Part shown: positions 4,121-58,929 of the stretch, one piece after another
Layout of the letters: each line of letters opens with the position of its first letter
Numbering within the stretch: the first letter of the stretch is position 1
Assembly: GCF_003259525.1 (NCBI RefSeq)
Contig: NZ_QLLO01000007.1
Coordinates: 62,001-126,000 of the forward strand
DNA length: 64,000 nucleotides
Source: Olleya aquimaris
GTDB lineage: Bacteria; Bacteroidota; Bacteroidia; Flavobacteriales; Flavobacteriaceae
Direction of reading: 5' to 3'
Notes under the pieces: model-generated
Told to the model about the DNA's origin: nothing
The model's input: only the letters and a program-made list of their open reading frames with translations
Databases searched by the model: none
Program-made: the position numbers and the translations under genes

Positions 4121-4222
4121 AGACAGTAGTCGCTACTCCTGATGGTAGTGGCATCCTTTTTTTATTTGGTTACTGAGCGTAGTCGAAGTGCCAAATAAAA
4201 AAAGATATAACGGACAGCAGGT
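4121..4222 (+). ncRNA. Structured RNA candidate with REP core in its loop
   Basis: A small hairpin (CTAC / GTAG, 4133-4148) precedes a perfect 14-bp stem (4156-4169 with 4191-4204), which encloses a 21-base loop holding the REP-like core CTGAGCGTAGTCGAAG. The conserved-looking tail ATATAACGGACAGCAGG follows. I recall near-identical blocks (GGTAGTGGCATCC...ATAACGGACAGC) in other Flavobacteriaceae; it may correspond to the Flavo-1 RNA motif, but I cannot confirm that without a covariance search. On the plus strand it would be the 5' leader of the DUF3810 gene. Confidence 0.4.
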
Positions 4223-4278
4223 AGAAACCTTTTAAAAAAACCACAAGGATTGGTCCTTATTTTATTTATTTTTGAATC

Positions 4279-43403: not shown

Positions 43404-44891
43404 TTACTTCCAATCTGGCATTTTTCCGTTTTCTAAAAATAATGTTCTATTACTTACAGAAGCAATTTCTACTTTAACCAAATTTTGCTGCGAGACACCA
43501 TCATTAGAGGTGTTTACAAAAATAATTTCTGCTTCATTAGGAGAAAATTTTGGATCTAAATCGTTAGTACCTGCTGGCTTAGATGTAGATATATCTGTTA
43601 CTACCATTGTATTTATATCATAAATAAACATATGCGAATCTAGTTGTCTGTATTCTGCATTTTGATTACCAGACACATCATACGTGTATAATAATTTAGA
43701 GCCATCAAAAGTATAATCTAAACCACCTGCTGCACCAGGAACACCTTGAAGTATATAATCTACAATGCCACCAGAATTAGTCATGGTATAGATTTCTACA
43801 TTATACCCAACAGAATTATTAGTTTTAACTGCTAAACGTTGTGTTAATTGACACCAATCAACCTCTGTAATAAAATTACCATTTAAGGTTTGATGCACTA
43901 AATTTAAACCAGAACCATTACTATTGATTTCGTATAATTTATCAAAGTTTGGATACACTAGCTTAGTATTATTACTTTTCCATTCAAAATCTAACTCTTC
44001 TAAATTAAATCCATTAACAGATACTGTATTAGTAATTTGCATAATGTTAGATCCATTTAAATCCATAGTATAAATATGAACTTGTCCACCATTAGATCTT
44101 AAAAAAGCTAATTTATTAATATTACTGGCTTTTCTAGGTCTCCAGCTATTATTGCTTGCAGACGTTAACTGATACTCGATACCAGCATCATCTACAGAAA
44201 AAATAACATTATTTCCATTTATTTTCCTGGTGAAAAAATGCCTGTTATCTGGAAATTCTAAGGTTTTAAAATTAAATGTTTCGCTTAAAATAGGATCGTT
44301 TATATTATCTGAAGCAGAAACTTGCCAGAAATATTTAGTATTATAATCTAACCCTGAAACCGTTAAGGTGGTATCTGTTACATCTGTATACGTTAATACA
44401 TCTGTATTTTGATCGTTAAAAATTTGGATTTCGTAAATCAAATCATCGTCTTCTGGATCGGAACCTGTCCAAACTAAATCTACAGTTATAGGCTGATTTA
44501 CAGCATTGTTTTCAGGACTAACTAAGATTGGTGCATCTGGTGCATTATTATTTGCAGTTTCTATATCTAATTCAAAAATTACATTTACGGTATTATCGTC
44601 TGTAACTGTTGCAGGTTCAAATTCTGTTAAAAACCCTTCCTTTTGTGCTTGTACAGAATAGCTTCTAACAGGTACATCATTAATTACAAAATTTCCTGAA
44701 GCATCAGTAAAAACGATACTAGAACTTGGGTTAGTTGAAACTCTTGTATTTTCTAGAGGTATATTATCTCCTTTAGATACTACTTTTCCTGTAATTGTTC
44801 CTGTTCCGCTTAGTGTTATCTTGTCTTCACTACAACTAATTAGCAAAGTAATAATAACAATTAGGCTTATATATTTTGATAGTATTTTCAT
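43404..44891 (-). CDS. Lipoprotein with carboxypeptidase-like, FN3 and TolB-type propeller domains
   Basis: The protein has 495 residues from the ATG at 44889-44891; a TTG three codons earlier is less likely. It has a lipoprotein signal (IVIITLLISCSED), a CarboxypepD_reg-like domain at about 25-100 (TGKVVSKGDNIPLENTRVST), an FN3 domain at about 110-210 (DAPILVSPENNAVNQPITVDLVW), and a TolB/PD40-like propeller to the end (SWRPRKASNINKLAFLRSNG, FSPNEAEIIFVN). It starts 40 bp after csgG in the same direction, and a terminator follows, so it is the last gene of the curli operon. A surface anchoring or assembly role is inference. Confidence 0.8.
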   Translation of the reverse strand: MKILSKYISLIVIITLLISCSEDKITLSGTGTITGKVVSKGDNIPLENTRVSTNPSSSIVFTDASGNFVINDVPVRSYSVQAQKEGFLTEFEPATVTDDNTVNVIFELDIETANNNAPDAPILVSPENNAVNQPITVDLVWTGSDPEDDDLIYEIQIFNDQNTDVLTYTDVTDTTLTVSGLDYNTKYFWQVSASDNINDPILSETFNFKTLEFPDNRHFFTRKINGNNVIFSVDDAGIEYQLTSASNNSWRPRKASNINKLAFLRSNGGQVHIYTMDLNGSNIMQITNTVSVNGFNLEELDFEWKSNNTKLVYPNFDKLYEINSNGSGLNLVHQTLNGNFITEVDWCQLTQRLAVKTNNSVGYNVEIYTMTNSGGIVDYILQGVPGAAGGLDYTFDGSKLLYTYDVSGNQNAEYRQLDSHMFIYDINTMVVTDISTSKPAGTNDLDPKFSPNEAEIIFVNTSNDGVSQQNLVKVEIASVSNRTLFLENGKMPDWK

Positions 44892-44931
44892 CTGTTTCAA
44901 TTATTTAAATGTTAAATTAAAATTTAACAGA

Positions 44932-46419
44932 TTAATTATTTTTTTTGTTTTGACGTTCTGCTCTTTTTTTCTCCTGCATTAACCTTCTATTTTCAAGTTT
45001 TTGAGCTTTTAACTCGGCTTTTTTAAGTTTTTCAAGTTCTTTTCTTTGGTTAAATTTGGTTGGAGGTTTGGACAGGTAATAATTAACTCCTAAACCAAAT
45101 CTATAAAACATATCGTCTACACTACCAGCAACCACACCATCTAATTCATCTGTAAAGGCTAGGTTATGCTCTCCGTAAAGATATACGCCTAAGTTGTCAT
45201 GTATTAAATATTCTAAACCAAATCCTGCTTGTATTTTAGGGTCTACAGCTTTAAAATAGTTAGATGCATTAGTCCCAACACCTGCAAATAGATAGGGTGT
45301 AAAATTATCGTAAGGCAATACTTTGTATTCTATATTTAAATCAAAAGACATAAAGCCTTCATTTAAAATTTCTTTATTTTCTAGATTATATTTGTTGTAA
45401 GTAAAATCTAAACTCAAATAGGGGTTTAGAGAGCGTTTAAGTCCTATTTTAGTGTTGAGTTCTGGTTGAGGGTCTGGTAAATCTCCGTTAATTAATGTAC
45501 CTCCTAATGCACCAGTGATTGCATAATCACCACGACGTTCTGTTAAAAAACGCTCGTATAACTCCGTTGATATTGCTTCATCTTTTTCTGCATCAAAATC
45601 TTCAATAAGCTGTGCAGTAGACTCTTCACTTAGTCTTGGCAACCACAATTTGTCTTTTATACCTTCTATAATTAAAGCTTCCACAGCTTTTTCTATAGCT
45701 TCTTTCATGGCTAACTGTACTGGTTCGTTTTTTGTAAAACCTATTTCAGTTTCAAGTAAGCGTTGGTATTTTACATATTTAAATAAGTTAGCGGATACTG
45801 CTTGAGATAAAATTGTTTTTGAGATGTAAACGGTTTTTAAAATTTTTCCGCTTGACGTAGATACTGCTCTAAGATATACTGTAATTCTGTCTTGTCTGTA
45901 TTGTGTAGAACTACCAATACCTAAATATCTTGCACCTGCTCCGCCTGTTATAATGTTTGTATCATAAGATATTATTCCACCTTCTAGTAAAACTCCCGCG
46001 TATAATAGTGGTGGTAAATTAGGCTCGTTTGGATTTTGGTTTTTTCTGTATTCGTCTCTTGTAGAACGAATGATATTTCTTTCGTTTAAAAGGTTACCAA
46101 GGTTTTCTCTCTCTATTACAGTAAACCATTTAGAATCTTCTAATGCTTTAATTAGCATGGTTGTTCCACCTTGTGATACTGCTGTACTAAAGGTGCTACC
46201 GTTTTCTACAGCTTTGTATTGCCCAGTTTGATCCTTAAAATTGTATACACCAGCTACAACTGGTTCTTGAGGTAACGGGAATTCTGTTAGTTTACTAGTA
46301 ACAGGAGTAGTTTCTCCAATCCTTGCCCTTTCTTGTTTGTAAGGTTGATTAAAAAATGCACCACAACCGGTTAAAATTAAAAATAATATGACTGCAATAG
46401 CAGGTCTAAAATTTAGCAT
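44932..46419 (-). CDS. csgG: CsgG curli secretion pore with C-terminal beta-barrel-like extension
   Basis: The protein has 495 residues, compared with 277 in E. coli CsgG. The lipoprotein signal ends in ILTGCGAFF, followed by the CsgG start PYKQERARIGETTP, then VAGVYNFKDQTGQYK, TMLIKALEDSKWFTVIERENLGNLLNERNIIRSTR, GVLLEGGIISYDTN and the strands TVYLRAVSTSSGKIL. Residues about 300-450 form an added OmpA/OMP-like beta region (YLSLDFTYNKYNLENK, YLFAGVGTN, FRFGLGVNYY-like). The tail (KPPTKFNQ onward) is a Lys/Arg-rich coiled coil. CsgG forms the outer-membrane nonamer that exports curlins. Confidence 0.9.
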   Translation of the reverse strand: MLNFRPAIAVILFLILTGCGAFFNQPYKQERARIGETTPVTSKLTEFPLPQEPVVAGVYNFKDQTGQYKAVENGSTFSTAVSQGGTTMLIKALEDSKWFTVIERENLGNLLNERNIIRSTRDEYRKNQNPNEPNLPPLLYAGVLLEGGIISYDTNIITGGAGARYLGIGSSTQYRQDRITVYLRAVSTSSGKILKTVYISKTILSQAVSANLFKYVKYQRLLETEIGFTKNEPVQLAMKEAIEKAVEALIIEGIKDKLWLPRLSEESTAQLIEDFDAEKDEAISTELYERFLTERRGDYAITGALGGTLINGDLPDPQPELNTKIGLKRSLNPYLSLDFTYNKYNLENKEILNEGFMSFDLNIEYKVLPYDNFTPYLFAGVGTNASNYFKAVDPKIQAGFGLEYLIHDNLGVYLYGEHNLAFTDELDGVVAGSVDDMFYRFGLGVNYYLSKPPTKFNQRKELEKLKKAELKAQKLENRRLMQEKKRAERQNKKNN

Positions 46420-46845: not shown

Positions 46846-48042
46846 TTAATAGCGTTTAATTGTTTTAGATTCTTTCTCTAGTTTTTTAAAATGTTTATAC
46901 ACATTAATTATGGCATAATCATTCATTTTGGTTAAATACTCTGTACTAGGTCTTACAAAAAACGAAAAAATCTTATCATCTCCAACTATAACTTCTATTT
47001 TCGTGTTTCTACCAATTGCTAAAATTTCTTTTATGGTAACTACTTGATTACCGTTAATGTTATTTTGAGTGTATAATGAGTAAAACAATTTGTAAAAATC
47101 TCTTCCAGGTTTTGTTTTAGTGTCTTCTACAACAATTCCTTTAAGTTCTAAACCATCTCTTTTTTGAGTGTTTATGTCTTTAGAAAGTTCTTGCTCTTGC
47201 TTTAATTTTTCTAATATTCGTTGCTTTTTGGCTTCTTCTTCTTTTAAATCCTCATTAAAAACTACTCTATCCTGTCCAACAATATTATTATCTAAATCAT
47301 AGATTAATAATACCGCTATTTTCTTTTCATTGTCATTTAACTTAAATGTTATTGAAGATAAATCCGTTTTTTGATTAGCATTTAAAATAAACCGTTCGTT
47401 TGTTAATTCTTCAATGTTATTTAAACTTTCATCTTTATTAAACAACACTAATTTATAAATAAGGCTTTTAGTAATTTCTGTTTTGTTAAAGGCAGTTCCT
47501 TTTATGGTTGTAAAATCGTTTTGATTGTCTGTTTGTATTTCTGCTTCAACCTCATTGTTTATTGCTTGCGCATTTATTTTTATGGAAACATCTTCAACTT
47601 TAGCAGCAATATCTTTTAGTACTTCTACTTTATTGATGTTATTCTGACCATCGTCATTAAGTACTACTCGGTCTTTTCCTATTATATTTTCATTTGCATC
47701 ATAAAGTAAAAGTAGAATAATCACTTTTGTTTTCTGATCAAAATTGATTGAGGTGGTTGATAAGTCTTTTTGTTGGTTGGAATCTAAAGTAAACTGACCG
47801 CTTTGTTCGTTTTTAGATTTGTTTTTATGTTCATCTGTTTTAAAGACAGACAATTTATAACTCAAGTTTTTAGTGTTTTGAGTTTTATTAATGGCTATGC
47901 CTTTAATATTAATATTATCGTTGTCCTGATTGATGTTAAGTTTGGCCTCAACTTCTGTATTGTATAGTTGTGCCTGAACAGTTATTGTAAAGAGAAGAAT
48001 AACAACAGATATTATTGTTTTTTGGTTTACACACAAAACCAT
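46846..48042 (-). CDS. csgE: CsgE with duplicated N-terminal domain
   Basis: The protein has 398 residues, compared with about 130 for E. coli CsgE. A signal peptide (VVILLFTITVQAQ) is followed by two copies of a beta-rich domain, about 30-130 and 162-262, with matching elements (KGIAINKTQNTKNLSYKL and KGTAFNKTEITKSLIYKL; GKDRVVLND and GQDRVVFNE). A charged helix at 265-295 leads to the CsgE domain (GLELKGIVVEDTKTKPGRDF, SLYTQNN, FVRPSTEYLTKM). CsgE caps the CsgG pore on the periplasmic side. The duplicated part resembles CsgH/CsgC-type amyloid-inhibiting domains; this is inference. Confidence 0.88.
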   Translation of the reverse strand: MVLCVNQKTIISVVILLFTITVQAQLYNTEVEAKLNINQDNDNINIKGIAINKTQNTKNLSYKLSVFKTDEHKNKSKNEQSGQFTLDSNQQKDLSTTSINFDQKTKVIILLLLYDANENIIGKDRVVLNDDGQNNINKVEVLKDIAAKVEDVSIKINAQAINNEVEAEIQTDNQNDFTTIKGTAFNKTEITKSLIYKLVLFNKDESLNNIEELTNERFILNANQKTDLSSITFKLNDNEKKIAVLLIYDLDNNIVGQDRVVFNEDLKEEEAKKQRILEKLKQEQELSKDINTQKRDGLELKGIVVEDTKTKPGRDFYKLFYSLYTQNNINGNQVVTIKEILAIGRNTKIEVIVGDDKIFSFFVRPSTEYLTKMNDYAIINVYKHFKKLEKESKTIKRY

Positions 48043-48052
48043 AATAGTATTG

Positions 48053-48568
48053 TTAAAAATTTCTAATAATTATAGATTGATCTTGTCCTTGCATAGAAAT
48101 TTTTATTTTTTCTGATAAAGAATTAGATCCAAACATGGTTAAATTTTGATTGTTACCTGTTTGATTAATAGTTGCATTTCTAAGATTTGATTTAAATGGG
48201 CTATAATCTAAAAACGTATTATTATCTCCATTTTGTATAACTGTTTCTTTTAAGGTAGTACTGTTAATGTCTAATACAGTTAAATTATCATCTCCATTTT
48301 GCAGTACTGTAACAGTACTCTCTCTAGAAGTTGTTGTGCTTATTAAATTGTTATTATCACCTATTTGCGCTATATAAATAGCATTATCTGTAGTACTAAC
48401 AGTGGTTGATGTTGCACTTTGATTTAATAAGAAATTTTCTTGGGAAGACTGCGTATCAAAACCAGAAATATCTGAAGTATCATTTCCAGCTTCAAAAGTT
48501 TGAGCTGTAATTGTACTACTTGAAACTAGTATTGAAATCACTATTAAACATTTAAATAAAGTTTTCAT
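48053..48568 (-). CDS. CsgB-like minor curlin (nucleator candidate)
   Basis: The protein has 171 residues with a signal peptide (VISILVSSSTITAQ). The mature part has about five curlin-like repeats with a wide spacing near 22 residues: IAQIGDNNNLISTTT, VLQNGDDNLTVLD, VIQNGDNNTFLD, INQTGNNQNLTMFG and SMQGQDQSIIIRNF. It is less regular and less Asp-rich than the four large paralogues and is the first gene of the csgEFG operon (10 bp before csgE), as expected for a nucleator. The name csgB is likely but not proven. Confidence 0.75.
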   Translation of the reverse strand: MKTLFKCLIVISILVSSSTITAQTFEAGNDTSDISGFDTQSSQENFLLNQSATSTTVSTTDNAIYIAQIGDNNNLISTTTSRESTVTVLQNGDDNLTVLDINSTTLKETVIQNGDNNTFLDYSPFKSNLRNATINQTGNNQNLTMFGSNSLSEKIKISMQGQDQSIIIRNF

Positions 48569-48702: not shown

Positions 48703-50646
48703 TTAGTCATTTTGAGTTACAGAAGACGAGTTACTATTACCAATTTGGTCTACAGTACTTGTATGCGTAGTTCCATTTTGGTCTACAGTGCTCATGTTAA
48801 AGTCCCCTTGTTGGTTAACAGAACTATCATGCATAAACCCATCTTGGTCAACAATACTGTTGTTTAACATACCATTTTGAGTTACAGTAGATAAATGTAA
48901 GTCTCCCATTTGAGATACAGAACTATTGTTAGCCATACCGTCTTGGTCAACATAAGATTGATTATTATCACCTGTAGAAGTTACTTGACTTTGGTGGCCT
49001 GTACCATCTTGCGTTACTACAGATAAGTTAGCATCTCCAGTTTGTGTAACATTACTACCATTACCATTACCATTTTGGTCAACATCAGAACTGTTACCAG
49101 TACCCTGCTGCCATACAAATGAACCATTATTGTTTCCAATTTGGTCTACGTAAGAAATATTACTGTCTCCAATTTGATAAGTTGATGCAGTATTTGCATT
49201 ACCAACTTGATTTTGAGTAGAGTAGTTAGAATCACCTTGTTGAATTGTTAATCCATAATTAAAGTCTCCTACTTGGTCAACGTCACTCTGGTTCATGTCA
49301 CCATATTGTCCTACTCCAGCAGTGTTGCTATTTCCAGTTTGATCAATATCAGACATGTTAGAGTTTCCATATTGTTGATTAATACCATAGTTATTATCTC
49401 CTGACTGAGATATAGAACTTAGGTTACTATCACCCTGTTGGTCTATTTCAGCTGCATTAACATTACCATCTTGGTCAACAGTAGCGTCATTCATATCACC
49501 TAATTGATCAACATCAGAATCATTCATATCACCGTCTTGGTCAACATCTGACATATTCATGTCTCCTGTTTGATCTACATCACTAATGTTAGACTCACCG
49601 TCTTGACGTACGTTTGAATCATTATCATCACCAGTTTGAGTCACAGAAGAGTTATTACCTACTCCAGTTGCTCCATTAGTATCTTGACGAACATAAGAAT
49701 AGTTATTGTCACCATCTTGATCCACAACACTTATGTTTTCATGACCATTATATCCCTGATATACAATTGCATCGTTATTGTCACCATCTTGGTCAATATC
49801 TGAATTATTGAAATTACCCCACTGGTCTGAATAAACATAGTTAGAATCTCCAGTTTGGTCTACATCAGAGATATTATCATCTCCATCTTGCCAATTATAG
49901 TTATAGTTGTTGTCTCCTATTTGAGAAACGTCACCATCATTTCTGTTTCTTAGACCAAATCCTTGTTGTCTTACATAAGACCAGTTACCATCCCCTGACT
50001 GTAAAACATCAGCATCGTTATCATCACCTACAGAGTTAACTCTACTAGTATTATTATCTCCAACCTGATTTGTCCAGCTAAAGTTACTATCACCTATTTG
50101 ATCTACATCAGAAGAGTTACTATCACCAGATTGAAAAACCCATGAAGTATTAGACATACCAACTTGGTCTTGTGTTGATCCATTAAAATCACCATTTTGA
50201 CTGTTGTAAGCATAGTTGTTGTCACCTGTTTGATCGATAGAGGAAGTATTATCATCAGAACCATCAGTATCTCCATACTGGTCGATGTGTCCTGTGTTGT
50301 TATTTCCGTCTTGAGAAACAGACGCAGTGTTGTTGTCATTAACTGATGCACCACCACCAAAACCTTGATGGATATCTGCTTCGTTATTGTCACCTAATTG
50401 GATAACATCACCTTCGTTATCGTTACCTAATTGGTCTACATCAGAGTCGTTAGACACACCATTCTGCATTACGTCAGAATCATTGGTATCGCCTACTTGG
50501 TCGACATCTGAGTTGTTGGTCATTCCAGTTTGTGATACTACAGAAGCATTTCCGCTTCCTACTTGATCGACATCACTGTTGTTGGATTGTGCAAACATTA
50601 GTGTTCCACACATAAGCGCAGCTGCGCTGAAGAATAATTTTTTCAT
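48703..50646 (-). CDS. Giant CsgA-type curlin, about 55 repeats
   Basis: The protein has 647 residues, compared with 151 in E. coli CsgA. It has a signal peptide MKKLFFSAAALMCGTLMFAQ, then about 55 units of the 11-residue repeat NxSxVxQxGDx (for example NNSDVDQVGDT, NISDVDQTGDS), ending SSSVTQND. A few longer units occur (IHQGFGGGASVNDN, IDQYGDTDGSDD). Each unit would be one strand and turn of a beta-solenoid with Gln and Asn ladders as in curlins. Asp is very frequent, so the fibre should be strongly acidic and may bind Ca2+. Secreted through CsgG. Own promoter and terminator. Confidence 0.92.
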   Translation of the reverse strand: MKKLFFSAAALMCGTLMFAQSNNSDVDQVGSGNASVVSQTGMTNNSDVDQVGDTNDSDVMQNGVSNDSDVDQLGNDNEGDVIQLGDNNEADIHQGFGGGASVNDNNTASVSQDGNNNTGHIDQYGDTDGSDDNTSSIDQTGDNNYAYNSQNGDFNGSTQDQVGMSNTSWVFQSGDSNSSDVDQIGDSNFSWTNQVGDNNTSRVNSVGDDNDADVLQSGDGNWSYVRQQGFGLRNRNDGDVSQIGDNNYNYNWQDGDDNISDVDQTGDSNYVYSDQWGNFNNSDIDQDGDNNDAIVYQGYNGHENISVVDQDGDNNYSYVRQDTNGATGVGNNSSVTQTGDDNDSNVRQDGESNISDVDQTGDMNMSDVDQDGDMNDSDVDQLGDMNDATVDQDGNVNAAEIDQQGDSNLSSISQSGDNNYGINQQYGNSNMSDIDQTGNSNTAGVGQYGDMNQSDVDQVGDFNYGLTIQQGDSNYSTQNQVGNANTASTYQIGDSNISYVDQIGNNNGSFVWQQGTGNSSDVDQNGNGNGSNVTQTGDANLSVVTQDGTGHQSQVTSTGDNNQSYVDQDGMANNSSVSQMGDLHLSTVTQNGMLNNSIVDQDGFMHDSSVNQQGDFNMSTVDQNGTTHTSTVDQIGNSNSSSVTQND

Positions 50647-50675
50647 GTTTAAATATATATTGATTAATAGCTTCT

Positions 50676-50683
50676 CAAAGATA
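50676..50683 (-). promoter_or_regulatory. -7 box for first CsgA-like gene
   Basis: Read on the minus strand, TATCTTTG fits TAnnTTTG, 29 bp before the start. The sequence between box and start (CTATTAATCAATATATATTT) is almost identical in all four paralogues. Confidence 0.55.
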
Positions 50684-50849
50684 CAGAAATTATTAGCTCG
50701 AAAAATTTGTTATTTAAAAAAACATCTGTTTTTAACACTATTTTCGTTGACTATTCTTATTTATACGATAAAACGCACAAAACAATAAGTGTTTTCCTAC
50801 ATAATAATTTTTACTAAAAATAGGCAAAACCCTTAAAAACACTAGTAAC

Positions 50850-50866
50850 TACGTAGAAATACGTAC
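50850..50866. promoter_or_regulatory. Paired TACGTA site
   Basis: TACGTAGAAATACGTAC holds two TACGTA palindromes with a 10-bp repeat distance. It lies 204 bp upstream of the 647-residue CsgA-like gene. The rest of the 378-bp gap (50647-51024) contains the promoter region and the upstream terminator. Confidence 0.55.
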
Positions 50867-50956
50867 ATATTAGATGTAATAAATTAACATTGAACCTACG
50901 CTCTAGTATTTAGTATTAATTCAATTGATTTGTAGGCATATTTTAAACTATATACA

Positions 50957-50991
50957 TTAAAAAAGGGTTCAGTTAAAATCTGAACCCTTTT
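50957..50991. terminator. Terminator after second CsgA-like gene
   Basis: AAAAGGGTTCA / TGAACCCTTTT with a nine-base loop. Confidence 0.85.
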
Positions 50992-51024
50992 GAATATTTA
51001 GTAAGATTAAACTTTATAACATGA

Positions 51025-52278
51025 TTAATCATTTTGAGTCACAGAAGAACCGTTACCATTACCAATTTGATCTACAGTACTTGTATGCATGTTACCTGAT
51101 TGCATCACAGAACTTGTATTTAAGTCACCATCTTGTAAAACAGTACTCATATGAGACATCCCTCCTTGATCAACAAAAGAAGTGTTACCATCACCCAATT
51201 GATCGACATCAGAATCATTTAAAGCCCCATCATGTTGCCAAACGATACTAGAATTAGAATCTCCTAATTGATTGACATCAGAATTATTATCGTCTGAATT
51301 ATAATATTGATTGACTTGAGAACTGTTACCATCACCAGTTTGCAACACCGTACTTGTGTTATCATCACCTGTATATCCTTGTGCTACATAAGAAGAGTTT
51401 CCATCTCCTATTTGATCGACGTTTGAATCGTTATCGTTTCCATATTGAAAAACAAAATTCGCATTATTATCTCCTATTTGGTCCACATCAGATACATTAC
51501 TATCTATCCATTGACCAACATTAGAAAAATTACCATTACCACTTTGAGTAACAGTAGAAACGTTATTGTCGCCAATAGTTGTATAATAAAACCCTCCCTG
51601 AGCTACTTGTGAAATATTTGAGTCACCATTTTGATCTACATCAGAAAAATTTGAGTCTCCTTGCTGAAACATTGTAGAACTGTTAAAGTCACCAAATTGG
51701 TCTGTAATTGAAAAGTTACTATCCCCTATTTGATCTTCGTCAGAATAATTACCGTCACCAGTTTGAAAAACCCATGAAGTATTTAACATTCCATTCTGAT
51801 CTTGAGTTGATCCATTAAAATCACCAATTTGACTGTTGTAAGCATTATTCCAATCTCCTGTTTGATTGATAGCAGAACTGTTGTTGTCAGATCCATCAGT
51901 ATCTCCATATTGGTCAATATGACCACCATTTGAGTTACCATTTTGAGTAATAGACCCTGAGTTACCATCGTTAGCACCTGCTCCAGTACCAAAACCTTGA
52001 TGAATAGCTGAGTAGTTATTATCTCCTGTTTGAGACGCATTAGCGTCATTACCATCCCCTAATGAGTCAACATCAGAGCCATTAGAAACTCCATCCTGCA
52101 TGACATCTGCAGAGTTTAAGTCTCCCCATTGATCGACGTCTGAGTTATTGGTCATTCCAGTTTGTGATACTATAGAAGCGTTTCCGCTTCCTACTTGATC
52201 CACATCACTGTTGTTTGATTGTGCAAACATAAGTGTTCCACACATTAGCGCAGCTGCGCTGAAGAATAATTTTTTCAT
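51025..52278 (-). CDS. CsgA-type curlin, about 36 repeats
   Basis: The protein has 417 residues from the ATG that begins MKKLFFSAAALMCGTLMFAQ; a start 9 codons upstream lies in the conserved leader and is rejected. It has about 36 units of the same 11-residue repeat (NNSDVDQWGDL, NFSDVDQNGDS) and ends GSSVTQND. The irregular units IHQGFGTGAGANDG and IDQYGDTDGSDN stand at the same places as in its neighbours, so the paralogues share an aligned N-terminal third. Extracellular amyloid subunit. Confidence 0.9.
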   Translation of the reverse strand: MKKLFFSAAALMCGTLMFAQSNNSDVDQVGSGNASIVSQTGMTNNSDVDQWGDLNSADVMQDGVSNGSDVDSLGDGNDANASQTGDNNYSAIHQGFGTGAGANDGNSGSITQNGNSNGGHIDQYGDTDGSDNNSSAINQTGDWNNAYNSQIGDFNGSTQDQNGMLNTSWVFQTGDGNYSDEDQIGDSNFSITDQFGDFNSSTMFQQGDSNFSDVDQNGDSNISQVAQGGFYYTTIGDNNVSTVTQSGNGNFSNVGQWIDSNVSDVDQIGDNNANFVFQYGNDNDSNVDQIGDGNSSYVAQGYTGDDNTSTVLQTGDGNSSQVNQYYNSDDNNSDVNQLGDSNSSIVWQHDGALNDSDVDQLGDGNTSFVDQGGMSHMSTVLQDGDLNTSSVMQSGNMHTSTVDQIGNGNGSSVTQND

Positions 52279-52473
52279 AATTAAATATATATTGATTAAT
52301 AGCATTATAAATTTAAGAACTTAAAAGTTACCTATCCACTTTAGGGTCTTAAAATTTATTATACACAAGGTAATTTTCGATAAACAGAAATTTTTTCAGG
52401 GTAAAATACATTTTACTGTAGGAATAAACGCTCTTAAAATAATGTGCAACTAATTGATTTTAAGTGTTTTATG

Positions 52474-52490
52474 TACGTAGTTATACGTAC
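52474..52490. promoter_or_regulatory. Paired TACGTA site
   Basis: TACGTAGTTATACGTAC, two palindromes 10 bp apart, 196 bp upstream of the 417-residue gene. In the 305-bp gap (52279-52583) the only other features are the upstream terminator and the AT-rich promoter region. Confidence 0.55.
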
Positions 52491-52520
52491 TAATTATGAA
52501 AAACACGTCAGCAAAAAGAA

Positions 52521-52553
52521 AAAAAAGGCTTGATTTTTCAATCAAGCCTTTTT
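52521..52553. terminator. Terminator after third CsgA-like gene
   Basis: AAAAAGGCTTGAT / ATCAAGCCTTTTT with a short loop. Confidence 0.85.
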
Positions 52554-52583
52554 AGTTTAATAGATTTTAGTTACTACTAATAA

Positions 52584-54104
52584 TTAGTCATTCTGGATTA
52601 CAGTAGACGAATTAGAGTCTCCTATTTGATCTACAGAACTTGAATGTGTTGTACCAGTTTGGTCAACATCCGAGTTATTCATATCTCCTAACTGATTAAC
52701 AGTACTAGTATGCATTAAACCAGATTGGTTAACATCACTAATGTTAAAGTCACCTGTAGATAATACTATAGAAGAGTTAGCGTCACCATGTTGACGCACT
52801 TCACTATGGTTATCATCACCTAATTGATCTACAGTAGAGGTATGATTATCATCAAATTGTGCAGTAAAGCTATAGTTATTGTCTCCTGTTTGTGTTACTG
52901 CACTATAGTTAAAGTCAGAGCCATCTCCAACAGGAGTATATTGATCTGTACCATTCCAGTTGTTATTTCCAGTTTGTGTAACGCTACTTATATTATTATC
53001 ACTTGAAGCAGTTATAGCATCAAAAGGAGCTCCTTGATAATTATAAGAAAAGTTACCATCTCCTGTTTGTATTACGTCACTATCATTAGTATTACCATAT
53101 TGCCAAACATTAGACCCATTAAAATCTCCTTGTTGCACGGTAAAAGCATTATTATTGTCACCTACTTGTGTAATAGTAGATTGACTATCGTTACTTCCTC
53201 CTCCAATATAAAGGCCATACTGATCTGTGTGAGCATAATTATTGTTTCCTGTTTGGATAGTAGCAGAATTGTTTCTGTCTCCATAAACTCCCTGATGGGT
53301 GTATTGAATATTAAAATCTCCTGTTTGAACAGAAGTACTCACGTTTTCATTACCCCATTGATCGACATCAGAATAATTTGAGTTTCCATATTGTTCAACA
53401 TCACTATCATTTAAATTACCATTTTGAAATACATCAGAGTAATTAGAATCTCCGCTTTGTAATACTCTACTATCATTATCGTCCCCACTCTGTGTCATTT
53501 GAGAATAGTTCATATCACCCCATTGGTCAGTATCACTAAAATTACCATCTCCAGTTTGATCCTCATCAGAGATATTACTATCACCTAATTGGGAGACTAA
53601 ACTATAATTTGAGTTTCCATTTTGATCTTGAGTAGAACTGTTTTGATCTCCATTTTGATAGTTGAAAGCAACATTACCATTACCAGTTTGGTTAATCGCA
53701 GAAAAGTTATTATCAGAACCATCAGTATCACCATATTGGTCAATGTGCCCTGTGTTACTATTACCTGTTTGCGTTACAGATGCGGTATTGTTGTCATTAA
53801 CAGATGCACCACCACCAAAACCTTGATGGATATCTGATTGGTTATTATCTCCTAATTGGATAACATCACCTTCGTTATCGTTACCTAGTTGATCTACGTC
53901 AGAGTCGTTAGACACACCATCTTGCATGACATCTGAGTCATTGGTATCGCCTACTTGGTCTACATCTGAGTTGTTGGTCATTCCAGTTTGCGATACTACA
54001 GAAGCATTTCCGCTTCCTACTTGATCGACATCACTGTTGTTGGATTGTGCAAACATTAGTGTTCCACACATTAGCGCAGCTGCGCTGAAAAATAGTTTTT
54101 TCAT
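52584..54104 (-). CDS. CsgA-type curlin, about 44 repeats
   Basis: The protein has 506 residues with the same signal peptide and about 44 repeat units, ending SSTVIQND. Its first 80 residues are nearly identical to those of the 647-residue paralogue. Inserts such as HQGVYGDRNN, QYGLYIGGGSNDSQ and AQFDDN break the regular register in the middle. The Val positions are often Tyr or Phe (NYSDVFQNGNL, NYAHTDQYGLY). Own promoter (TTG-N18-TACCTTTG) and terminator. Confidence 0.9.
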   Translation of the reverse strand: MKKLFFSAAALMCGTLMFAQSNNSDVDQVGSGNASVVSQTGMTNNSDVDQVGDTNDSDVMQDGVSNDSDVDQLGNDNEGDVIQLGDNNQSDIHQGFGGGASVNDNNTASVTQTGNSNTGHIDQYGDTDGSDNNFSAINQTGNGNVAFNYQNGDQNSSTQDQNGNSNYSLVSQLGDSNISDEDQTGDGNFSDTDQWGDMNYSQMTQSGDDNDSRVLQSGDSNYSDVFQNGNLNDSDVEQYGNSNYSDVDQWGNENVSTSVQTGDFNIQYTHQGVYGDRNNSATIQTGNNNYAHTDQYGLYIGGGSNDSQSTITQVGDNNNAFTVQQGDFNGSNVWQYGNTNDSDVIQTGDGNFSYNYQGAPFDAITASSDNNISSVTQTGNNNWNGTDQYTPVGDGSDFNYSAVTQTGDNNYSFTAQFDDNHTSTVDQLGDDNHSEVRQHGDANSSIVLSTGDFNISDVNQSGLMHTSTVNQLGDMNNSDVDQTGTTHSSSVDQIGDSNSSTVIQND

Positions 54105-54133
54105 AATTAAATATATATTGATTAATAGCTTCT

Positions 54134-54162
54134 CAAAGGTACTTTATTAATTTGGACTACAA
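54134..54162 (-). promoter_or_regulatory. Promoter of third CsgA-like gene
   Basis: On the minus strand TTG and TACCTTTG are separated by 18 bp, the best-formed promoter of the four paralogues. The box ends 29 bp before the start codon. Confidence 0.6.
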
Positions 54163-54289
54163 CATATTGTCATCCTTATACCTACATAATTATTGTGTTT
54201 TTTCGTTAAAATGAAAAATAAATTAGATGAGTAACAATTTTTAGTAGGAAAAAGACTTCGATTAATCTTCTGAAAATCAAATAATTATA

Positions 54290-54306
54290 TACGTACTTAT
54301 ACGTAC
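54290..54306. promoter_or_regulatory. Paired TACGTA site
   Basis: TACGTACTTATACGTAC, two palindromes 10 bp apart, 186 bp upstream of the 506-residue gene. The 303-bp gap (54105-54407) otherwise holds the promoter and the upstream terminator. Confidence 0.55.
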
Positions 54307-54357
54307 AAATAGCACCTATTACTCTAAAAAATTAAAATTTTCAGAAAAATAAAACAT

Positions 54358-54388
54358 AAAAAAAAGACTCAAAATATTGAGTCTTTTT
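54358..54388. terminator. Terminator after fourth CsgA-like gene
   Basis: AAAAAAGACTCAA / TTGAGTCTTTTT with a short loop. Confidence 0.8.
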
Positions 54389-54407
54389 AAAAAATAAATT
54401 TTAATAA

Positions 54408-55343
54408 TTAATCGTTTTGTGTAACAATAGATGAATTAGAATTACCTATTTGATCTACATCACTAACATGGGTATTACCTGTTTGATTAACCGTGCTCAT
54501 ATTTAAGTCACCATCTTGAAACACATTACTTAAATGAGAAAATCCATTTTGATCAACCATACTACTATTAGAATTTCCTAATTGTAAAGTTGTAGAATCG
54601 TTTAAGTTTCCGTCTTGAATAGTTGAAGCATAGTTACTATCTCCAGTTTGATCTGTATCATCTACATTATCATCTCCTGTTTGCGACACGTAAGACTCGT
54701 TTAAATTACCTAACTGATCTACATTAGATGAGTTGTTAATTCCTACTTGAAACACTCTAGATTCGTTATCATTTCCAGTTTGGTTTACATCTGTAAAGTT
54801 GTCGTTACCAACTTGGTCTTGATTAGAATAGTTTCTGTTACCTAACTGTGTCAAGTAAGCATCGTTACCTGCAGATTGATTAGGACCAGAACTTTGGTAT
54901 TGTCTCCCTCTGTTTCTGTTTCCGTCTTGATCTGTATCTGCAAAGTTATTATCAAATCTTTGGATTTGATTAGATCTGTTACGATTTCCTAATTGGTTTG
55001 CATAAGCAATGTTATCTTCTGCAAAATTAACCCCTTGATCAATACTCGCTCTGTTACGGTTACCTTCTTGATAGATATCACCAAGGTTTCGGTCTCCAGC
55101 TTGCTTGACTGTAGCTTCGTTTAAATCTCCTAATTGATACACATCTGCATCATTAAGCTCACCACTGTTGGGATTTGTTGGAACAGCACCATACTGATCG
55201 ACATCAGAATCGTTACCAGCTCCTTGTTGGAAAACATCAGCATCGTTGGAAGTACCAGATTGGTCTACATCACTGACATTGGATTGTGCAAACAATAGTG
55301 TTCCACACATTAGCGCAGCTGCGCTGAAAAAAAGTTTTTTCAT
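54408..55343 (-). CDS. CsgA-type curlin, about 26 repeats, divergent N-terminal region
   Basis: The protein has 311 residues from the ATG of MKKLFFSAAALMCGTLLFAQ. It has about 26 repeat units, ending SSIVTQND. The first half differs from the other three: Arg-containing units occur (GDRNLGDIYQEGNRNRAS, NRSNQIQRFDNN, RGRQYQSSGPNQS), so this subunit carries positive charge amid the acidic repeats. It is the first gene of the array and lacks the TACGTA pair upstream. It could be a minor or adaptor subunit; that is inference. Confidence 0.88.
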   Translation of the reverse strand: MKKLFFSAAALMCGTLLFAQSNVSDVDQSGTSNDADVFQQGAGNDSDVDQYGAVPTNPNSGELNDADVYQLGDLNEATVKQAGDRNLGDIYQEGNRNRASIDQGVNFAEDNIAYANQLGNRNRSNQIQRFDNNFADTDQDGNRNRGRQYQSSGPNQSAGNDAYLTQLGNRNYSNQDQVGNDNFTDVNQTGNDNESRVFQVGINNSSNVDQLGNLNESYVSQTGDDNVDDTDQTGDSNYASTIQDGNLNDSTTLQLGNSNSSMVDQNGFSHLSNVFQDGDLNMSTVNQTGNTHVSDVDQIGNSNSSIVTQND

Positions 55344-55485
55344 GTTTAAATATATATTGATTAATAGCACTATAAATCTAAGTCAAATATTCATAGCAAA
55401 AAAGTGCTTTTGAAGAACGAGACTATTTTTTCGACAAGCTTACAATTTAATCGTTGTAATGTAAAACTTACAAACAAAATAACAT

Positions 55486-55536: not shown

Positions 55537-57723
55537 TTATTTAGTAAATAATAACTCTCTATATTTTGTGAGTGGCCACAACTCGTCATCCACCAACAAT
55601 TCTAACTTATCGCAATGGTATCTAATATCATCAAATATTGGTTTAACTTTATGACAGTAGTCTATTGCTTTTTTAGTTTCGTCTTTAATAGAGTTAGCTT
55701 TTTTACGCGCTTCGGTCATTTTTGTAACATTAGAATTAATGTTAGCTATATGACCTGAGATTTCCTCTATTAAATTTAGTTGCTCTTGGGCTAATTTTTT
55801 AAAGTCGTCACCATAAATGTCTTTTAACCCTTTAACGTTATCAATTAATAGGTTTTGATATCTTACCGCTGTAGGTACAATGTGGTTTCGAGCGATATCA
55901 CCTAAAACACGTCCTTCTATTTGAATACGCATAGTGTATTCTTCTATTTCAATTTCATATCGTGCTTCAGCTTCTACGGTATTCATTACACCTAGTTCCT
56001 CAAACAATTGTAATGTTTTTTTAGAGACTCTAGCTTGCAATGCTTCCGGAGTGGTTTTATTATTACTTAACCCACGCTTTTTAGCTTCTTTCTCCCAAGC
56101 TTCTCCATAACCATTACCTTCAAATAATATAGCTTTAGATTGTTTAATATATTCTCTTAACACATTAAAGACAGCATCGTCTTTTTTCATGCTCTTTTTA
56201 TCTATTAACGTATCTACTTCTGCTTTAAAATCTATAAGCTGTTTAGCAACAATAGCATTTAAAACCGTCATTGGATTGGCACAATTTGCTGTAGAACCTA
56301 CTGCTCTAAATTCAAATTTATTCCCTGTAAAAGCAAAAGGAGACGTACGATTTCTGTCTGTATTATCCAATAACACGTCAGGTATTTTACCAACGACGTT
56401 AAGTTTAAGGTCTGTCTTCTCTTCTGGAGATAACTTACCATTGGTTACATTTTCTAATTCGTTTAATGTCGCTGTTAATTGCGCTCCGATAAATACAGAT
56501 ATAATCGCTGGAGGCGCTTCATTTGCACCTAATCTGTGATCATTACTTGCAGATGCTATGGATGCACGTAGTAATTCTTCATTTTCATGAACCGCTTTTA
56601 TAGTATTAATAAAAAACGTTAAAAACTGAAGGTTGCTCATAGGTGTTTTTCCTGGACTTAATAAATTAACTCCAGTATCTGTACTTAAACTCCAATTGTT
56701 ATGTTTTCCAGACCCATTAACTCCAGCAAAAGGTTTTTCGTGAAATAAGACTTTAAAATTGTGTCGGTCTGCAATTTTATCCATCACATCCATTAATAGA
56801 GAGTTGTGGTCTACTGCTAAATTAGCTTCTTCGTAAATTGGCGCTAATTCAAATTGATTTGGAGCTACTTCGTTATGCCTAGTCTTTACAGGAATACCTA
56901 GTAACATGCATTCGGTTTCTAAATCACGCATAAAAGACATGGCACGATTAGGAATGGTACCAAAGTAATGATCATCTAATTGCTGACCCTTAGCAGGAGA
57001 ATGACCTAACAATGTACGACCCGTTTGTACTATATCAGGTCTTGACATGGCTAAATCACGATCTATTAAAAAATATTCTTGCTCCCAACCTAAGGATGCA
57101 TTTACTTTTTTGACATTTTTATCAAAATATTTACAGACTGCAACTGCTGCACTATCTACAGCTTGTAATGCTCTTAACAAAGGAGTTTTGTAATCTAAAG
57201 CTTCGCCTGTATAAGCTACAAATACAGTTGGTATACATAAGGTAGTACCATAAATAAAGGCTGGAGACGTTGGATCCCAAGCGGTATATCCTCTTGCTTC
57301 AAAGGTGTTTCTAATTCCACCATTTGGAAAACTTGATGCATCAGGTTCTTGCTGAACCAATTGTCCACCACCAAATTTTTCAATTGCCAGACCATTACCT
57401 ATAGTTTCAAAAAATGCATCGTGTTTTTCTGCGGTAGCACCTGTTAATGGTTGAAACCAATGCGTATAGTGAGTAGCTCCTTTAGAAATTGCCCACTCTT
57501 TCATTCCTGTAGAAATATGATCTGCTATAACACGATCTATTTTTTTTCCATATTGAATGGCGTCCATAACACCTGCAAGCGCCTCTTTTGTTAGATATTG
57601 ACGCATAATTGCCTCTCCAAATACATTGGACCCAAAAATCTCAGAGCGACGCTGCTTCTCTTTAATTACTAAGGGTTTGTGTTTTAATGATTCTTTGATT
57701 GCATGAAATCTTAATGTTGACAT
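55537..57723 (-). CDS. glnN: Glutamine synthetase type III
   Basis: The protein has 728 residues, the GSIII size. It makes glutamine from glutamate, ammonia and ATP. Motifs: an N-terminal region with FGSNVFGEAIMRQYL, AYTGEALDYKTPLLRA, the Glu ligands in LGWEQEYFLID and HNEVAPNQFELAPIYEEAN, the ATP and loop region FAGVNGSGKHNNWSL, and NRTSPFAFTGNKFEFRAVGS. The C-terminal extension is helical. Divergent from a GSII gene 186 bp away, so a shared nitrogen-controlled region is likely. Confidence 0.96.
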   Translation of the reverse strand: MSTLRFHAIKESLKHKPLVIKEKQRRSEIFGSNVFGEAIMRQYLTKEALAGVMDAIQYGKKIDRVIADHISTGMKEWAISKGATHYTHWFQPLTGATAEKHDAFFETIGNGLAIEKFGGGQLVQQEPDASSFPNGGIRNTFEARGYTAWDPTSPAFIYGTTLCIPTVFVAYTGEALDYKTPLLRALQAVDSAAVAVCKYFDKNVKKVNASLGWEQEYFLIDRDLAMSRPDIVQTGRTLLGHSPAKGQQLDDHYFGTIPNRAMSFMRDLETECMLLGIPVKTRHNEVAPNQFELAPIYEEANLAVDHNSLLMDVMDKIADRHNFKVLFHEKPFAGVNGSGKHNNWSLSTDTGVNLLSPGKTPMSNLQFLTFFINTIKAVHENEELLRASIASASNDHRLGANEAPPAIISVFIGAQLTATLNELENVTNGKLSPEEKTDLKLNVVGKIPDVLLDNTDRNRTSPFAFTGNKFEFRAVGSTANCANPMTVLNAIVAKQLIDFKAEVDTLIDKKSMKKDDAVFNVLREYIKQSKAILFEGNGYGEAWEKEAKKRGLSNNKTTPEALQARVSKKTLQLFEELGVMNTVEAEARYEIEIEEYTMRIQIEGRVLGDIARNHIVPTAVRYQNLLIDNVKGLKDIYGDDFKKLAQEQLNLIEEISGHIANINSNVTKMTEARKKANSIKDETKKAIDYCHKVKPIFDDIRYHCDKLELLVDDELWPLTKYRELLFTK

Positions 57724-57871
57724 ATCTTCTTTTTAATTTATTATTTTACGAAATTACAAATTTTTATATACCTAAAATGTTATACCCTAAAAAAAACAGG
57801 GTTATTAACAATGTTTTAATAAAAATACATTTTAGACCCTTGTTTTTTTATGGGTGATTTTAAAATTATTC

Positions 57872-57879
57872 TATATTTG
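57872..57879 (+). promoter_or_regulatory. -7 box for GSII gene
   Basis: TATATTTG fits TAnnTTTG and lies 30 bp before the GSII start at 57910; this rules out a start at 57850, which is upstream of the box. Confidence 0.55.
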
Positions 57880-57909
57880 CTGAAATTAATACCAAAACGA
57901 ATTTTTATC

Positions 57910-58929
57910 ATGAGTAAATCTAAATTAGAGTACATCTGGCTGGATGGTTACTATCCAACACAAAACATGAGAAGTAAAACTAAAGTTGAGAATGATTTTA
58001 GTGGAAAATTAGAAGATTGTCCAATTTGGTCTTTTGACGGAAGCTCAACTAAGCAAGCGTCAGGTGGATCTTCAGATTGTCTTTTAAAACCAGTAGCTAT
58101 TTATCCAGATCCAGCAAGAAGAGATGGTTATTTAGTAATGACTGAAGTTTTAAATGCAGATGGAACACCTCACGTATCTAACGGAAGAGCAACTATTGAA
58201 GATGAAGATAATGACTTCTGGTTTGGATTTGAACAAGAGTATTTTATCATGGATACCAAAACACAACTACCTTTAGGGTTTCCTATTGGTGGATATCCTG
58301 CGCCACAAGGAATGTATTACTGTTCTGTAGGTGGAAAAAATACACATGGTAGAGATTTAGTTGAAGAACATGCAGATTTATGTATTGATGCTGGTTTAAA
58401 TTTTGAAGGTATTAATCAAGAGGTTGCTTCTGGACAATGGGAGTTTCAATTATTTGCTAAAGGTGCAAAAAAAGCAGGAGACGAAATCTGGATTGCAAGA
58501 TACCTATTGGATAGATTAACAGAACAATATGGTTACTATATAGAATATCACCCAAAACCATTAGGTAAAGATATGGACTGGAATGGATCTGGTATGCATG
58601 CCAACTTCTCTAACTCTGTTTTAAGAACATGTGGAAGTAAAGAAACTTATGAAAAAATTTGTGAAGCGTTTAGACCTGTGGTAAAAGAGCACATTGCTGT
58701 TTACGGTGAGTTTAACGACCAACGTTTAACAGGAGATCATGAAACTGCATCTATAGATGACTTTAGCTACGGAGTTTCAGACAGAGGAGCTTCAATCCGT
58801 ATTCCAATTATTACAGTAGAAAAAGGATGGAAAGGTTGGTTAGAAGACCGTCGTCCAGCTTCTAATGGTGATCCATATAAAATTGCAGGACGAATTATAA
58901 AAACTGTTAAATCTGCTAATATTAGCTAG
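57910..58929 (+). CDS. Glutamine synthetase type II (eukaryote-like)
   Basis: The protein has 339 residues, the usual GSII size in Bacteroidota. It has the beta-grasp start KLEYIWLDGYYPTQNMRSKT, PIWSFDGSSTKQASGGSSD, the catalytic Glu in FWFGFEQEYFIMD, GINQEVASGQWEFQLF, DWNGSGMHANFSN, GDHETASIDDFSYGVSDRGASIRIP and the end EDRRPASNGDPYKIAGR. It uses ammonia, glutamate and ATP. Start ATG at 57910 (MSKSKLEY). A terminator follows. Confidence 0.95.
   Translation: MSKSKLEYIWLDGYYPTQNMRSKTKVENDFSGKLEDCPIWSFDGSSTKQASGGSSDCLLKPVAIYPDPARRDGYLVMTEVLNADGTPHVSNGRATIEDEDNDFWFGFEQEYFIMDTKTQLPLGFPIGGYPAPQGMYYCSVGGKNTHGRDLVEEHADLCIDAGLNFEGINQEVASGQWEFQLFAKGAKKAGDEIWIARYLLDRLTEQYGYYIEYHPKPLGKDMDWNGSGMHANFSNSVLRTCGSKETYEKICEAFRPVVKEHIAVYGEFNDQRLTGDHETASIDDFSYGVSDRGASIRIPIITVEKGWKGWLEDRRPASNGDPYKIAGRIIKTVKSANIS

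Follow-up and report, generated by a model that had tools for sequence, protein, structure and literature searches.

A complete curli locus with four long acidic CsgA paralogs in Olleya aquimaris

Four csgA-type genes in a type VIII secretion locus

A 64-kb stretch of the Olleya aquimaris genome (hereafter the window, meaning the whole DNA that was analyzed) carries four long genes for CsgA-type curli subunits, here named A1 to A4, next to the genes of the curli secretion pathway. Curli are fibres that many bacteria use in building biofilms. An earlier note on this DNA had described four adjacent minus-strand genes of 647, 417, 506 and 311 residues; these open reading frames (ORFs) were confirmed at the following coordinates (lengths in amino acids, aa) and share an MKKLFF start, which in A2 and A4 lies nine codons downstream of the start given by a mechanical ORF list.

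48703..50646, minus strand: CsgA-type subunit A1 (protein 1), 647 aa, 55 strands or 27.5 curlin repeats
51025..52278, minus strand: CsgA-type subunit A2, 417 aa, 34 strands
52584..54104, minus strand: CsgA-type subunit A3, 506 aa, 41 strands
54408..55343, minus strand: CsgA-type subunit A4, 311 aa, 25 strands, no palindrome upstream

The Pfam family Curlin_rpt (PF07012) matched A1 to A4 with E-values of 4.7e-79, 5.9e-40, 3e-43 and 4.7e-39 and scores of 260.4, 135.3, 145.9 and 132.5 bits, respectively; because each of the four lies far above the family cut-off of 20.7, chance is out of the question. None of them reached the cut-off of 160 for the E. coli-type CsgA equivalog of NCBIfam (156.7, 83.6, 98 and 72.3 bits for A1 to A4), and A1 exceeded the cut-off of the CsgB equivalog (268.7 versus 165), so the A and B labels of E. 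coli are not transferable to these proteins. A search of PHROGs with A1 and the short curlin encoded next to it gave no match.

The common signal peptide that had been proposed is present, with residues 1-21 identical in three of the proteins and different at one position in the fourth, and all four end in VTQND or VIQND, as claimed. They are also very acidic: mature A1 contains 104 Asp or Glu (D/E) versus 6 Lys or Arg (K/R) residues, and the computed isoelectric point is 4.05 for all four mature proteins, a value that is probably the lower limit of the programme. The K/R count is 12 in A4 versus 0-6 in A1-A3. The Asp fraction of 0.13-0.158 in A1-A4 compares with a median of 0.083 across 113 flavobacterial long curlins.

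Each of the four csgA start codons is immediately preceded by the same leader, GCTATTAATCAATATATATTTAA and two further bases (50647-50671, 52279-52303, 54105-54129 and 55344-55368). Its first 13 bases occur nine times in the genome, versus none for the backwards control: four copies at the csgA genes, one in a small-RNA-like array and four elsewhere. In addition, A1 and A3 have 97% in common over residues 1-94, versus 58% over the remainder. In that N-terminal stretch, A3 is closer to A1 of its own genome (0.936 and 0.957) than A3 proteins are to each other (0.908), a slightly higher within-genome likeness hinting at gene conversion.

Along the direction of transcription, the gene order is A4, A3, A2, A1, short curlin, CsgE fusion, CsgF, CsgG and a lipoprotein gene. 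The type VIII secretion locus is complete, with CsgG, CsgF and CsgE (PF10627, E 1.7e-9) adjoining the subunit genes.

48053..48568, minus strand: short curlin, probable CsgB-like nucleator, 171 aa, 4 QxG units, Curlin_rpt match
46846..48042, minus strand: CsgE with two N-terminal CsgC/CsgH-like immunoglobulin (Ig) domains, 398 aa
46437..46835, minus strand: CsgF, Pfam PF10614, E 5e-34
44932..46419, minus strand: CsgG with C-terminal domain, PF03783, E 3.7e-68
43404..44900, minus strand: putative lipoprotein, next in line across the compared loci, CarboxypepD_reg and weak TolB-propeller matches

Residues 322-447 of CsgG weakly match models of outer-membrane-protein beta-barrels (OMP_b-brl 23.2 bits, below the cut-off of 28.7), and such a match at E <= 0.01 was seen in 10 of 12 CsgG proteins, the window's included. 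E. coli CsgG is not known to have such a C-terminal domain.

Ten loci of the same family keep the gene order, as assessed from the order, lengths and first residues of their ORFs; one of them is on a contig of 7 kb whose end falls in the lipoprotein gene. A survey covered the window together with 78 named loci fetched by CsgE similarity. At least one complete long curlin was found in 76 of the 79 loci: 54 carry one, 11 two, eight three, two four (the window included) and one five, all lower bounds, as the fetched stretches span about 20 kb or less compared with 64 kb for the window. Four long copies are thus at the high end, though not unique. The 113 long curlins of the survey range from 207 to 808 residues, with nine of at least 600, and 77 of the 79 loci have a short curlin (156-198 aa, 4-5 QxG units). 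Because the loci were found via CsgE, the survey is silent on the frequency of curli; CsgE was detected in 11 of 60 relatives and in 29 genomes from a phylum-wide sample of 296, the present genome being counted in both. In a literature search, no paper on Olleya with curli was found, and none combining 'CsgA homolog' and flavobacteria.

Repeat unit, predicted fold and outward acids

Strands were assigned by dynamic segmentation on the pattern N-x-S-x-V-x-Q, which gave 55 + 34 + 41 + 25 = 155 strand-plus-turn units, close to the approximately 160 repeats counted in the earlier note, with the proposed maximum of 55 units indeed found in A1. The proposed consensus NxSxVxQxGDx was recovered as well: among 131 units picked by QxG, N1 occurs in 120, S3 in 95, V5 in 87 and D10 in 66. 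What was not supported is the view that a unit of one strand and turn sets these proteins apart from E. coli CsgA, for the published curlin repeat is itself built of two strand-turn modules, motifs a and b (Sleutel 2023, PMC10192328). The 11-residue unit is a half repeat, and the halves differ with a two-strand period of about 22 residues. Outward aromatic residues recur with a frequency of 0.65 two strands on and 0.33 one strand on, compared with a base of 0.35, and none of 2000 shuffles was as high. A pair of Asp residues at strand positions 4 and 6 is found in 20% of the 155 strands and recurs at 0.33 at lag 2 versus 0.10 at lag 1, while D/E at position 4 recurs at 0.46 and 0.35, respectively (base 0.33). 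With a recurrence of about 22 residues, not 11, for outward aromatics and Asp pairs, the proteins have the usual curlin repeat of two strands. Its form, N-x-psi-x-psi-x-Q-x-G-x-x twice over about 22-23 residues, was found in all of A1-A4, which look, by sequence, like the centrosymmetric curlin class, in which the core pattern is common to both halves (PMC10192328).

In published units, A1 to A4 hold 27.5, 17, 20.5 and 12.5 repeats and fall inside the published ranges of 4-62 (PMC10192328) and 3-52. The label 'giant' therefore stands only in a relative sense: the subunits are long, but curlins of 4-62 repeats had already been published (PMC10192328).

The structure prediction that had been proposed was carried out for A1 with AlphaFold2, using an alignment with 11 other sequences and five models, and it gives a regular succession of short strands. 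The best model (mean predicted local distance difference test, pLDDT, 89.3; predicted template modelling score 0.81) has 52 strand elements at mostly 11-residue spacing; as three of them have double length, they fit the 55 strands of the segmentation. In a sequence search with A1, the one PDB match at E <= 0.001 was 8C50 (E 3.4e-37), which is the curli model of Pontibacter R15.5 according to its deposition. We regard a beta-solenoid fold as very likely, the solenoid and its handedness being inferred.

The earlier note had also placed Asp at gatekeeper-like sites, and Asp was indeed found in outward strand positions of A1-A4. The native gatekeepers of E. coli CsgA occupy the same strand positions. 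These native gatekeepers lie in R2-R4, and extra outward Asp in E. coli CsgA abolished spontaneous fibrillation while seeded fibrillation was kept (PMC11414021). An arrangement in which Asp is confined to one sheet along the whole chain was expected but was not consistently seen. By strand parity, D/E at position 6 amounts to 12/28 versus 12/27 in A1, 8/21 versus 6/20 in A3 and 10/17 versus 3/17 in A2, the only protein in which parity is kept, and A4 leans the opposite way at position 4 (2/13 versus 7/12). Either the acidic side shifts along the chain, or the strand phase slips at insertions.

A gradient of outward acids along the chain emerged from the other loci. In 96 of their curlins, acids occupy 361 of 2592 outward positions in the last nine strands versus 1675 of 6948 before, and the outward acid fraction drops to 0.02 at the last strand of the grouped curlins. 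Depletion of the last nine strands was seen in 21 of the 22 roughly genus-level groups with data (26 named), which are not fully independent and come through a motif filter that selects regular strands; the sole exception is represented by one metagenome-assembled genome (0.111 versus 0.107). We infer that the acid-poor C-terminus may be a docking or nucleating end. A paper dealing with electrostatics and nucleation (PMC9900396) may be relevant to this gradient.

Among known systems, Pontibacter korlensis CsgA R15.5 (8C50, PMC10192328) is, like A1-A4, a long curlin with regular two-strand repeats and nearly identical core residues in both halves. A half-repeat ending and an acidic grid on one face are further similarities to the Olleya subunits, although A2 has an even strand count in our segmentation, and R15.5 has 15.5 repeats versus 27.5 in A1. 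E. coli CsgA shares the curlin repeat, the CsgG/CsgF/CsgE pathway and surface Asp gatekeepers, putative in Olleya; it has about 152 residues and 4-5 repeats (Dueholm 2012), compared with 311-647 residues in Olleya, and its gatekeepers lie in R2-R4, whereas their putative counterparts in Olleya extend across most of the chain. CsgA of Sediminicola sp. YIK13, of the degenerate class (PMC10192328), resembles A1-A4 by description in its arc insertions and is 10-stranded, compared with 25-55 strands in Olleya.

The CsgE fusion and the upstream palindrome

The CsgE gene of the locus encodes three domains.

47653..47967, minus strand: first CsgC/CsgH-like domain, NCBIfam CsgH match just below cut-off and structural alignment
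47248..47565, minus strand: second CsgC/CsgH-like domain, 44% identity with domain one
46849..47151, minus strand: C-terminal CsgE domain, Pfam 38.3 bits versus a cut-off of 25

A profile of the CsgE domain matches the CsgE structure 2NA4 (E 0.0011) and remains below the cut-off of the E. coli-type NCBIfam CsgE equivalog (26.6 versus 137). The first domain scored 33.1 bits against NCBIfam CsgH, just below the cut-off of 35, and matched CsgC weakly; the second, scanned alone against NCBIfam, gave no match. Across the CsgE proteins scanned, the window's included, the CsgE match was present in 40 of 40 and a CsgH match at E <= 0.01 in 34 of 40. For the model of the first domain, the best structural alignment was to CsgC 2XSK (Z 12.4, 2.3 A over 94), and CsgH 2N59 aligned as well (Z 11.0, 2.8 A over 96); unrelated domains lie within 0.6 Z of the top CsgC alignment, so that the fold alone cannot decide the identity of this domain. 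A Foldseek search with the whole fusion, in which the CsgE part was barely probed, ranked transglutaminases and RbmA first, which we think is due to the two successive Ig-like domains.

Neither N-terminal domain contains a cysteine, and the disulphides of the family, a CxC in CsgC and a distant pair in CsgH (Taylor 2016), are accordingly missing; the domains are therefore called CsgC/CsgH-like and are not members by the disulphide definition. The net charge is +1 for the first domain, -5 for the second, which is thus acidic overall, and +7 for the CsgE domain; a basic sheet surface has been described for the CsgC/CsgH family (Taylor 2016). CsgC of E. coli and CsgH of Rhodopseudomonas are separate proteins, whereas in Olleya such domains stand in tandem and are fused to CsgE. 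The csgC gene was reported to be lacking in Bacteroidetes (Dueholm 2012), and a Bacteroidetes CsgH subfamily is mentioned by Taylor 2016, in whose accessible text the word 'fused' is absent. A literature search at the level of titles and visible abstracts found no paper describing a CsgC/CsgH-CsgE fusion.

Among eight Olleya loci, the length and alignment of CsgE indicate the two-domain form in seven and a single domain in one (L017). A wider sample of 25 CsgE proteins contained nine with a CsgH match, five with a match to a LysM model and four with Pfam LysM. In some of the more distant Bacteroidota (L117-L145), the N-terminal part of CsgE is LysM-like instead of CsgH-like.

Upstream of three of the four csgA genes lies a palindrome, TACGTA-N4-TACGTA.

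50850..50865: palindrome upstream of A1
52474..52489: palindrome upstream of A2
54290..54305: palindrome upstream of A3

With one mismatch allowed, these three sites in the window compare with 0.06 expected. In the eight Olleya loci, the palindrome stands 5' of 13 of the 17 long curlin genes, at a distance of 197-221 bases from its far end to the start codon (for A2 this counts from the MKK start; with the earlier ATG it is 184). All four genes without it are of the 311-aa A4 type. The genome itself contains 13 sites versus none for the backwards control. In a wider set of 125 long curlin genes, the palindrome precedes 18, almost exclusively from Olleya, with some genomes counted twice. A role as a curli-only operator is rejected, as the palindrome also precedes genes of other kinds; genus members in which CsgE was not found have 23 (G004) and 29 (G005) sites.

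An array of cassettes of about 139 bases each lies directly 3' of a LuxR-type response regulator gene (L113:2760-3660, G000:C4:127068-127636). Its first palindrome overlaps the stop codon of that gene, and the cassettes hold the palindrome TACGTAGTTCTACGTA. In two cassettes, the sequence reads as a short RNA (64-66 bases) that has two hairpins and a terminator-like end, and similar palindrome spacing was seen in the genus members G001, G003, G004 and G009 among the matches listed. The cassettes are possibly multicopy small RNAs that share control with curli.

Proposed assembly and its alternatives

With the genes, repeats, strand prediction, locus content and acid distribution shown, we consider it highly probable that this is a complete Olleya curli locus with four long acidic CsgA paralogs that are exported and assembled as proposed. 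By analogy with the curli literature, the signal peptide would bring the subunit into the periplasm, where CsgE with its two CsgC/CsgH-like domains would hold the chain unfolded and pass it to the pore formed by CsgG and CsgF. Nucleation outside would be the task of the short CsgB-like curlin, the chain would fold to a long two-sheet beta-solenoid, and solenoids would stack end to end as curli fibres. The dense outward Asp residues could act as built-in gatekeepers against premature nucleation, and the acid-poor C-terminal strands may be the end where folding or stacking begins.

Several observations weigh against this reading. The five A1 models vary, with mean pLDDT values of 89.3, 87.0, 86.9, 76.6 and 69.4, and of the 14 weak PDB matches that Foldseek gave for the A1 model, none reached E <= 0.001. 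The acids also follow a less regular pattern than the aromatics: D/E at position 6 recurs at base level at lag 2 (0.39 versus 0.39) and is depleted at lag 1 (0.22), and D/E at position 2 recurs alike at lag 1 (0.32) and lag 2 (0.29), with a base of 0.18. Moreover, in A1-A4 alone, C-terminal acid depletion is weak (24/108 versus 115/357, permutation 0.058).

A more novel version of the curli reading is a self-gated flavobacterial system, in which acids along most of the chain block periplasmic nucleation, the acid-poor C-terminus nucleates or docks, a single chaperone chain combining CsgC/CsgH-like domains with CsgE couples suppression to the export gate, and a CsgB-like seed, perhaps with sea-water divalent cations, releases assembly; as a whole, we regard this scheme as speculative and rather unlikely. 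Of similarly low probability is the alternative that the acidic faces make assembly or bundling dependent on divalent cations, with subunits remaining separate at low salt or low Ca2+ and sea-water Ca2+/Mg2+ bridging rows of Asp, or that the fibres are scaffolds for minerals or metals. It would agree with the Asp pairs at positions 4 and 6 and their recurrence two strands on, and R15.5, the closest characterized relative, offers a precedent: it has a D/E grid on one face, the authors attribute sheet stacking to divalent bridges, and at 30 mM CaCl2 sheet formation is replaced by mineral encrustation of single fibrils, the crust being calcium phosphate in the authors' view (PMC10192328). However, the accessible description of R15.5 names no Ca2+ requirement for fibrils (PMC10192328), and acid content varies widely among the flavobacterial relatives, with a median Asp fraction of 0.083 in the 113 proteins versus 0.13-0.158 in A1-A4.

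Specialization among the paralogs is a possibility to which we give more weight, while still doubting it. A1-A3 would be the bulk subunits, co-induced via the palindrome, and A4, conserved and under separate control, would occupy a position of its own in the fibre. Consistent with this, all palindrome misses in Olleya are A4-type genes, A4 is richer in K/R, and its body is 90% identical to that of the ortholog in G008, compared with 73% for A1 and 69% for A3; yet 54 of 76 loci show a single long curlin within the fetched stretch. The idea that the proteins are not curli amyloids, being instead RTX-type Ca2+ beta-rolls or ice-binding solenoids, draws on the Asp-rich turns and outward Asp pairs of A1-A4 and is extremely improbable. 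RTX repeats have a period of nine. The period of 11/22 found here, Curlin_rpt as the sole Pfam family at E <= 0.001, the adjoining curli secretion genes and the match of A1 to the solved curlin 8C50 all count against it, and it is rejected.

Returning to the curli reading, long acidic curlins are already a known type, and the earlier note overstated the novelty of the subunits, given that the published Pontibacter relative already has an acidic grid and a Ca2+ response; A1-A4 are a further example. Less familiar are the multi-domain CsgE, the CsgG C-terminal domain, the acid gradient and the palindrome, and it is the chaperone and the gradient that merit specialist attention. The flavobacterial CsgE bears a domain like the amyloid inhibitor CsgC, the gene for which was reported as lacking in Bacteroidetes (Dueholm 2012), and the C-terminal fading of outward acids indicates a region that may not tolerate gatekeepers. 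The 113 proteins (207-808 residues) form a series in length, charge and copy number that provides material to test the influence of repeat number and surface charge on nucleation, and the same natural series could be useful for engineered curli materials.

Two further genes, of 728 and 359 aa, adjoin the curli locus at 55537-58929, and we take both to be glutamine-synthetase-like; a gene of 728 aa also borders the curli locus in nine of the ten relatives' loci. Elsewhere in the window, an Rfam Flavo-1 RNA was detected at 4131-4228 (63.5 bits versus 42).

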